Source of the DNA: Sphingomonas sp. NFR04
GTDB lineage: Bacteria > Pseudomonadota > Alphaproteobacteria > Sphingomonadales > Sphingomonadaceae
DNA: 64,000 bases
Direction: 5' to 3'
NCBI RefSeq assembly: GCF_900114095.1
Contig: NZ_FORV01000003.1
Span: 434,001-498,000 of the forward strand
Under the pieces are notes generated by a model. That model was not told the DNA's origin. It saw only the letters and a list, made by a program, of their open reading frames with translations, and ran no database searches. The position numbers were made by a program, and so were the translations under genes. This document shows, piece after piece, positions 52,645 to 54,187 of the stretch. The stretch's first letter is position 1. Each line of letters begins with the position of its first letter.

Positions 52645-52776
52645 ATCCTCCCCCGCCAGGGGGAGGTGTCAGGCGCAGCCTGACGGAGGGGGCGGACGCA
52701 CGCAGGCCCGAGAGGTTCGTGCTTCCTCCCCCTCCGTCGCGCTTCGCGCGCCACCTCCCCCTGGCGGGGGAGGATC
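52645..52776. repeat. Palindromic repeat, family D
   Basis: The ends TCCTCCCCCGCCAGGGGGAGGTG and CACCTCCCCCTGGCGGGGGAGGA are near-perfect inverted repeats (about 23 bases), each also a small hairpin, with an inner GACGGAGGGGG/CCCCCTCCGTC pairing. It follows the membrane protein gene and precedes the convergent small hydrophilic gene. Confidence 0.85.
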
Positions 52777-52785
52777 ATCTGCGCC

Positions 52786-53028
52786 TTACTCCCCCTTGGT
52801 CGTCGCGTTCGGGTTCGGGCCGCCCTCATAGTTGACATGGCTCTGCCCGCCATGGCCCATCAGATGGCCTGGGCCTTCCTTCTTCGCCTTGTCCGGATAA
52901 GGGTTCGGATAGGCGCCGCCTTCGCTCTCGCCCGCGCTGCGGCCATGGGTGTCGACGTCCGAGACGCCGTCGGGCGCGCCTTTGTGCGCATCGCCCCCGC
53001 TCGCCTGCATCGGTTGCTTGTCGCTCAT
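52786..53028 (-). CDS. Small hydrophilic protein of unknown function
   Basis: An 80-residue Gly/Asp/His/Pro-rich soluble protein with no signal or membrane segment. The ATG at 53028 has GGAG eight bases upstream; an upstream in-frame ATG at 53067 is less likely. I do not recognise a domain. It is divergent from the Mn catalase and shares a 256-base gap with it; both could belong to a stress response. Confidence 0.55.
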   Translation of the reverse strand: MSDKQPMQASGGDAHKGAPDGVSDVDTHGRSAGESEGGAYPNPYPDKAKKEGPGHLMGHGGQSHVNYEGGPNPNATTKGE

Positions 53029-53181
53029 GTGCCGCGCTCCTGACTCTATGGGTCTCTCGTTCATCAACGAAGGGTCGCCGCTGCCCGTTCCATTGATCGG
53101 CTGGCTCGTTCAGCGCACAAGCGACAGCTATGTTGAAGAAGCCGGAACGACCCGCATAGTTCTGTCCACGAGGCAGTCCAG

Positions 53182-53195
53182 TTGATTCATATCAA
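53182..53195 (+). promoter_or_regulatory. FNR/FixK-type box upstream of Mn catalase
   Basis: TTGAT-TCAT-ATCAA is a perfect match to the FNR/FixK consensus TTGAT-N4-ATCAA and is fully palindromic in the arms. Its centre is about 96 bases before the catalase ATG, where an activator of a promoter near 53230 could sit. It also lies about 155 bases before the divergent small gene. Confidence 0.7.
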
Positions 53196-53284
53196 TCACA
53201 AATAATCGATCAGCGCAGAAGTATCTGAACCATGTGCTCGGCCATCCGCTGTCTTCCCGTACGCAATGCTCAAGGAGAGACTGC

Positions 53285-54187
53285 ATGTTCATGCACAACA
53301 AGCGCCTGCAATATACGGTGCGGGTGGCCGAGCCAAACCCGGTCCTCGCCTCGCTGATGCTCGAACAGTTCGGCGGCCCGGACGGCGAGCTGGCGGCGGC
53401 GATGCGCTACTTCACGCAAGGCCTCGCCGAGGATGATCCCGGCCGCAAGGACATGCTGCTCGACATCGCCACCGAGGAGTTGAGCCATCTCGAAGTGATC
53501 GGCTCGATCGTCGCGATGCTCAACAAGGGCGTGAAGGCGCATATCTCCGAAGGCGATATGGAAGAGGCCGAGCTGTACATGTCGCTCACGCAAGGCGGCA
53601 ACAGCCACACCCAGGCGATTCTCTATGGCGGCGGCCCGGCGCTGACCAACTCGGCGGGCGTGCCCTGGACGGCGGCCTATGTCGACAGCCGCGGCGACCC
53701 GACCTGCGACCTGCGCTCGAACATCGCCGCGGAGAGCCGCGCCAAGATCGTCTATGAGCGGCTGATCAACATCACCGACGATGCCGGCATCAAGGACGCG
53801 CTCAAGTTCCTGATGACGCGCGAGGTGGCGCACCAGAAATCGTTCGAGAAGGCACTCTATGCGATCGAGGACAATTTCCCGCCGGGCAAGCTGCCGGGCG
53901 TGCCGGAATATGCGAGCATGTACGTCAACACCTCGCAGGGCGAGGGCGACATGCTGGGGCCGTGGAACGACGGGCCGGAATGGGATCGGGTCGACGATCT
54001 CCAGCAGACGCTCCCAGCCGACAGTGGCGACGGCATGCCGACCGTGACGCTGGGTTCGGCCGATACCGCCGCGCTGACGCAGCTGGCCGAGCGGACCAAG
54101 TCCGATCCCTCGACCAATCCGACCACCGGCGCCGATCTCGCCGCCGGCCCAGGCGCGGGGCGGACCAAGAACGACGTGGAAGCCTGA
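53285..54187 (+). CDS. Manganese catalase
   Basis: The 300-residue non-haem catalase removes hydrogen peroxide with a dimanganese site. Ligand motifs are present: Glu35 in D-G-E-L-A-A-A-M-R-Y-F, E-E-L-S-H-L-E (Glu about 65, His68), A-E-S-R-A-K-I-V-Y-E-R-L and R-E-V-A-H-Q-K-S-F with the later His. The N-terminus M-F-M-H-N-K-R-L-Q-Y is the standard family start. AAGGAGAG precedes the ATG. It stands alone with an FNR-type box upstream. Confidence 0.95.
   Translation: MFMHNKRLQYTVRVAEPNPVLASLMLEQFGGPDGELAAAMRYFTQGLAEDDPGRKDMLLDIATEELSHLEVIGSIVAMLNKGVKAHISEGDMEEAELYMSLTQGGNSHTQAILYGGGPALTNSAGVPWTAAYVDSRGDPTCDLRSNIAAESRAKIVYERLINITDDAGIKDALKFLMTREVAHQKSFEKALYAIEDNFPPGKLPGVPEYASMYVNTSQGEGDMLGPWNDGPEWDRVDDLQQTLPADSGDGMPTVTLGSADTAALTQLAERTKSDPSTNPTTGADLAAGPGAGRTKNDVEA

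Follow-up and report, generated by a model that had tools for sequence, protein, structure and literature searches.

The EcfG promoter is reported to have the form GGAAC-N16-CGTT, with a near-invariant AAC and a flexible -10 part, and in Sphingopyxis two katA catalases are among the direct EcfG targets (PMC7083833). For Sphingopyxis granuli Fnr the published consensus is TTGAc/t-N4-g/aTCAA; 11 of the 18 Sphingopyxis Fnr boxes lie near -41.5, and the fixK box is at -60.5 (PMC7713065). Among the open-access papers that searches on manganese catalase brought up, none deals, by its title or the opening of its abstract, with the promoter described here, an absence which is weak evidence.

The window, i.e. 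the whole stretch of 64,000 nucleotides that was analysed (G000:C10:434001-498000 of a 4.77-Mb genome), carries the following features around this promoter.

53182..53195, + strand: TTGATTCATATCAA, the reported box, the form that a conserved dyad element of 14 bp takes in this strain
53285..54187, + strand: manganese catalase, 300 aa, named from PF05067, NCBIfam and solved relatives
53272..53279, + strand: ribosome-binding site AAGGAGAG; 11 of 13 columns of 53272-53284 are invariant in ten relatives
53200..53212, + strand: second conserved block AAATAATCGATCA, missed by the sequence-only reading; 10 of 13 columns are invariant in 10 relatives
53132..53148, no strand assigned: GTTGAAGAAGCCGGAAC, the best conserved intergenic stretch (top-ranked 14-column windows, identity up to 0.96), which may serve either flanking gene
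53226..53250, + strand: putative core promoter TGAAC-N16-CGCT, at the place of the EcfG -35 GGAAC in other orthologues
53066..53091 (C10:487066-487091), - strand: GGAAC-N17-CGTT, by motif match a consensus EcfG promoter for the divergent gene
52786..53028, - strand: divergent small hydrophilic protein, with an inferred start at MSDKQ; the longest frame reaches 53067

The gene following the box was confirmed as a manganese catalase (PF05067, E=4.4e-86, 288.8 bits against a cut-off of 27). Its NCBIfam match was also to manganese catalase, below the cut-off of that model, and its solved relatives are Alr3090, 1jku and 1o9i. Judged by the catalase, MAG S1C273, Sphingomonas trueperi and S. pituitosa are among the nearest named relatives in the matches listed. 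For the divergent small protein neither Pfam nor NCBIfam gave a match at E<=0.001. A large intergenic inverted repeat was also observed at 52645-52775, with two 58-nt arms, 86% complementary and 15 nt apart, and with CCTCCCCCTGGCGGGGGAGG at both ends in opposite orientations; we take it to resemble the short palindromic repeats of sphingomonads.

TTGATTCATATCAA matches the FNR consensus exactly (0 mismatches), as had been reported for it, and 89 bases separate it from the catalase start codon. In the window it is the sole match with at most one mismatch; 0.44 such matches were expected from shuffles, and at least one was seen in 38 of 100 of them. The whole genome of 4,772,316 bases contains 2 perfect FNR boxes including this one, while the reversed-pattern control gave 0; the second perfect box has no clear target gene. 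From base composition about 0.2 perfect boxes would be expected genome-wide at the G+C of the window (0.69), and 2.6 if the G+C of the intergenic stretch around the box (0.54) held throughout, whereas the expectation for this 217-base stretch alone is about 1e-4. Thus such a match would rarely be expected at this particular promoter, but its presence at some promoter in the genome is less unusual. Boxes with one mismatch numbered 74 in the genome and 10 in the reversed control, a comparison which is not fair, since the control words contain TAG/CTA.

The sequence-only reading had named the absence of any FNR/FixK homologue as a result that would refute it. Thirteen Crp-type helix-turn-helix matches were found in the genome, 8 of them over the cut-off, and they include an FNR-type homologue at C9:286565-287317. 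The latter has a CxxCx7C motif (CAACGVRMASLC) near its N-terminus, and in an alignment the Cys of its TELCVF falls on the Cys in the second domain of an FNR with solved structure; we take these to be the iron-binding cysteines, after E. coli FNR. Its recognition helix is IETVSR, of the E..SR type, and its best NCBIfam match was FnrL, at E=1.4e-59 and under the curated threshold. The recognition helix is VHVNR, not the FNR type, in five of the eight Crp-type genes over the cut-off. In the region L046 5683-8150, the FNR gene has after it, on the same strand, a gene that by eye resembles a universal stress protein, with no NCBIfam match, and ompW is divergent from the FNR gene; of the places listed for the relaxed FNR consensus, none lies between FNR and ompW.

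Other boxes could be found in the genome as well: 9 places match TTGAY-N4-RTCAA, the Sphingopyxis granuli consensus, compared with 2 in the control. One of them, TTGACGCTTGTCAA (L164 1501-1514), lies between hcp (hydroxylamine reductase) and a divergent Rrf2-family regulator, 61 bp from the start of the former and 55 bp from that of the latter; the regulator matches the NsrR model below its cut-off. Judged from this arrangement, TTGACGCTTGTCAA is likely a control point of FNR and NO stress. A further place lies 35 bp before a bacterial-like globin gene. Among the remaining 6 (the site in the window excluded), several are within long frames, and a target could be named with confidence for none of them. 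Since the genome holds an FNR homologue and plausible targets for it, the resident FNR is likely to be functioning, and the simplest objection to oxygen control is removed.

The upstream regions of 10 unique close orthologues, the window included, were aligned; their catalases are 91-100% identical. L048, L050 and L053, being duplicates of L241, L242 and L243, do not enter this set, nor does G265, whose match is partial (84%) and lies at the end of a contig. One TGA stop was noticed within the catalase match of L244, thus the gene may be broken in that close relative (G258). Six of the 14 columns of the box are invariant in the ten relatives (positions 2, 4, 7, 8, 11 and 13). The versions in the clade follow approximately TT(G/C)A(T/C)nCAnGTTA(A/T/G), mostly TTGAT-nCAn-GTTAA; those of the relatives are TTGATGCACGTTAA, TTGATGCACGTTAT (twice, and so in S. 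trueperi), TTCACCCAGGTTAA, TTCATCCAAGTTAA, ATCACTCAGGTTAA (twice), TTGACCCAGGTTAG and TTAATTCAGATCAA. The right half ATCAA occurs only in the window and in L241 (identical to L048, MAG S1C273), whose left half is TTAAT. In 8 of the 9 other close relatives the right half is GTTAA, GTTAT or GTTAG; five of these eight were covered by the FNR search, and all five carry an FNR that is 88-97% identical. Relatives with the same FNR have thus not kept the site as an FNR box, the ATCAA half being retained in 1 of 9 (L241).

The distribution of conserved columns within the box was also examined. Positions 3 (identity 0.36) and 12 (0.64) vary among the ten relatives, and G3 and C12 are presumably the bases that FNR should read, after the specificity of E. 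coli FNR. The CA at positions 7 and 8, in the supposedly free spacer, is invariant. The mean pairwise identity of the box is 0.70, against 0.44 in the preceding 32 bases. However, 44 of 149 alignment windows are conserved as well as or better than the box, chiefly in GTTGAAGAAGCCGGAAC and AAATAATCGATCA, the latter of which is better conserved in the ten relatives than the box just upstream of it. Compared with the FNR/FnrN/FixK box TTGAT-N4-ATCAA, the element is thus alike in length, in its 5-4-5 dyad, in the perfect match of this strain and in the presence of an FNR homologue, but the catalase site is not kept as an FNR site in eight of nine close relatives, its position 3 is variable and its spacer CA is invariant.

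GGAAC, the EcfG -35, occurs at -70..-45 from the start codon in 31 of the 49 other genus orthologues, and a broader set that overlaps with them has it there in 44 of 73 loci; as controls, three neighbouring bins gave 0-6, and two control words in the same bin gave 1-3. The fuller pattern GGAAC-N16/17-(C/G/T)GTT or CATT was present in 18 of the 49. In the clade of the window GGAAC was found at -70..-45 in none of the ten; TGAAC or TGAAA stands there instead, and the -10 position reads CGCT (53247-53250 in the window) in 10/10, not CGTT. TGAA(C/A)-N16/17-CGCT matches all ten close relatives, by a pattern chosen after seeing the alignment. Judged by these motifs, the promoter of the clade may be a degenerate EcfG promoter or another ECF promoter. 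The GGAAC at 53144-53148 (within GTTGAAGAAGCCGGAAC, + strand) could be an alternative -35, and CGTT is absent 16-17 bp after it in the window. Likeness to the EcfG promoter GGAAC-N16/17-CGTT lies in the many orthologues with GGAAC and in the consensus promoter of the divergent gene, whose EcfG motif was present in 6/6 close relatives scanned there, the window included. On the other hand, the clade has its TGAA(C/A)...CGCT, and the conserved dyad upstream is not needed by the EcfG model. No sigma-70-like promoter for the catalase was found. If transcription starts at about 53256, the position inferred from the ECF-type promoter, the centre of the box is at about -68, a distance unfit for a class II FNR site. 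With Crp/FNR class I sites the locus shares a dyad that in several species precedes the -35 by 16, 26 or about 30 bp (by eye); spacings of 20, 40 and about 60 bp also occur, however, and transcription would rely on an ECF-type sigma factor.

The element appears to extend beyond the clade. Nine of the clade's sites were made into a matrix, with which 23 further orthologues, drawn from 151 genus genomes, were scanned; p-values came from dinucleotide shuffles. The element was detected at p<=0.05 in 11 of the 23 (1.2 expected), at -78 to -129 and in 10 of the 11 on the + strand; one of these sites (L024) is itself FNR-like. Among 26 further orthologues from a 295-genome search it reached p<=0.05 in 7, one of them on the + strand, and in the combined genus orthologues (23 + 26) in 17 of 49, 10 of them on the + strand; because of the kinship among the sequences these p-values are too small. 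The better sites read approximately TTRAY-nCAn-RTTAR. Outside Sphingomonas, L057, L079, L087, L101 and L119 of an 80-locus set had the element at p<=0.05, by a matrix that contains sites from the scanned sequences and by mononucleotide shuffles, so that these p-values are not independent. Unguided Gibbs motif discovery on 29 oriented upstream regions ranked other stretches first, dominated by clade-specific ones, and the box formed only part of a weaker 18-column solution. The element is conserved in the clade and lies upstream of GGAAC.

The occurrence of the element was compared with that of FNR. At E<=1e-40 an FNR was found in 63 of the 151 genus genomes, and in 6 of 11 genomes with the element versus 5 of 12 without it, which indicates no link between the two. 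In L036 and L261 the catalase is preceded by a match to TTGAY-N4-RTCAA at -76, 2 bp before GGAAC, and in L024 and L246 by a site one base off the FNR consensus at -100; G149, the genome of L036, encodes an FNR, and in G010, to which L024 belongs, no match reaches E<=1e-40. Since FNR-like catalase sites occur in two further small lineages, control of the FNR type may have arisen more than once.

Searches for a regulon gave a mixed picture. TTRAYNCANGTTAR with at most one mismatch had 8 matches in the genome of the window versus 16 in the control, thus no regulon is visible there for it. TTRAYCCARGTTAR had 9 matches in 61 genus genomes versus 3 in the control, with mixed neighbours that include a CsbD-like/ferritin-like gene pair (named by eye). 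The composite of the element and GGAAC was found 14 times in 151 genus genomes, against 3 for the reversed-pattern control, and one of the 14 is a catalase promoter. Some of the others precede genes that by eye look stress-related; the genes named in this way include those of an SRPBCC protein (two genomes), of a small basic protein and of a hemerythrin-like protein. Several matches look like coding or chance hits. In the genome of the window itself the composite was absent. The case for a wider regulon of element and GGAAC is therefore open but weak. GGAAC-N16/17-CGTT alone had 51 matches in this genome versus 48 in the control, hence single matches are meaningless without conservation.

Other binders were considered. 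A NarL-type response regulator was rejected. Two NarL-type genes (L150, L170) lie just downstream of the element, which at first hinted at autoregulation. Among 30 homologue upstream regions read, only L211, L212 and L236 had a high-scoring site, by a matrix that contains the scanned sites and by mononucleotide shuffles, so that the p-values are not independent, and the genome of the window has no match to the regulator at E<=1e-30. The site models of CtrA and LysR were weighed by eye only.

FNR/FixK control of the catalase, as the sequence-only reading had proposed, would mean that an iron-sulphur FNR activates or represses the gene at low oxygen. What stood of this proposal is the perfect box, rare in the genome, and the homologue with its IETVSR helix and CxxCx7C motif; it is further favoured by the 9 places against 2, two of them before the hcp/Rrf2-regulator and globin genes, by the FNR-consensus boxes at the catalase in L036 and L261, and by the TTGAc/t-N4-g/aTCAA that FnrN and FixK use in Sphingopyxis (PMC7713065). 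What did not stand is the site as a conserved FNR site: the ATCAA half is absent in eight of the nine other close relatives, five of which have an FNR of 88-97% identity, and an ECF/EcfG-like promoter lies downstream, where no sigma-70-like one was found. Moreover, the positions that we take FNR to read vary, whereas spacer positions 7 and 8 do not. The centre at about -68 from the inferred start also differs from the -41.5 or so of most boxes in Sphingopyxis (PMC7713065). A working FNR/FixK site therefore seems unlikely to us. Equally doubtful is that another Crp/FNR-family protein, perhaps of the VHVNR kind, would be the native regulator and read TTRAY-N4-RTYAA. The palindromic column compositions and the 5-4-5 geometry (in a matrix from chosen sites) are in line with such a protein, as are the eight Crp-type genes over the cut-off, five with VHVNR, and the element is also present in genomes without an FNR match at E<=1e-40. 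However, a motif-like site was observed upstream of only 1 of the 7 Crp-type genes scanned (L008), and the invariant central CA is not palindromic.

The box could also need no dedicated regulator, being part of an A+T-rich, moderately conserved upstream region in which the FNR match arose by chance. The low expectation of about 1e-4 applies to this one intergenic stretch and there are many such stretches per genome, with 2.6 perfect boxes expected at the intergenic G+C; the second perfect box without a clear target, the 44 of 149 windows conserved as well or better and the failure of unguided discovery to rank the box first agree with this. The six invariant columns in ten relatives and the hold-out enrichment (11 of 23 orthologues, -78 to -129) speak against it, and we consider chance quite improbable, below either of the two preceding readings.

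The reading that we prefer, and regard as somewhat probable from the sequence comparisons, is a regulator site with FNR-like geometry and another specificity, placed above a promoter of the ECF/EcfG type; in this strain the site would have drifted to the FNR consensus. The box would be the strain's copy of a dyad that part of Sphingomonas conserves ahead of its manganese catalase promoter. The core of this promoter would be of the ECF/EcfG (general stress) kind, GGAAC-N16/17-(C/G/T)GTT in several orthologues and TGAAC-N16-CGCT here. A dimeric transcription factor, probably of Crp/FNR-like 5-4-5 geometry but not FNR, would bind the element and adjust the transcription begun by the ECF sigma factor. 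In the lineage of the window the right half would have changed from GTTAA to ATCAA by two substitutions, and together with the left half TTGAT it is now identical to the FNR consensus. This box may be bound by the FNR of the strain, but control by FNR would be at most a recent, secondary layer. Since the relatives keep a different sequence there, near a promoter of the general-stress type, oxygen control is probably not the original or main job of the box. It is a tentative thought, possible but on the doubtful side, that an uncharacterised dimeric Sphingomonas regulator reads TTRAY-nCAn-RTTAR and acts jointly with a sigma factor of the EcfG type, at the manganese catalase and perhaps also at further stress genes, and that in this strain its site became an FNR box.

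The locus illustrates that even an exact fit to a well-known consensus may be misleading as long as the site has not been compared among relatives; here the positions that define FNR specificity are among the variable ones. In Sphingomonas and other Alphaproteobacteria the manganese catalase is likely a general-stress (EcfG-type) gene. The locus is a candidate for rewiring at the level of the site, in which two base changes would put an existing stress gene under oxygen control; if this is true, a gene of peroxide defence may be coming under the control of oxygen in this strain.
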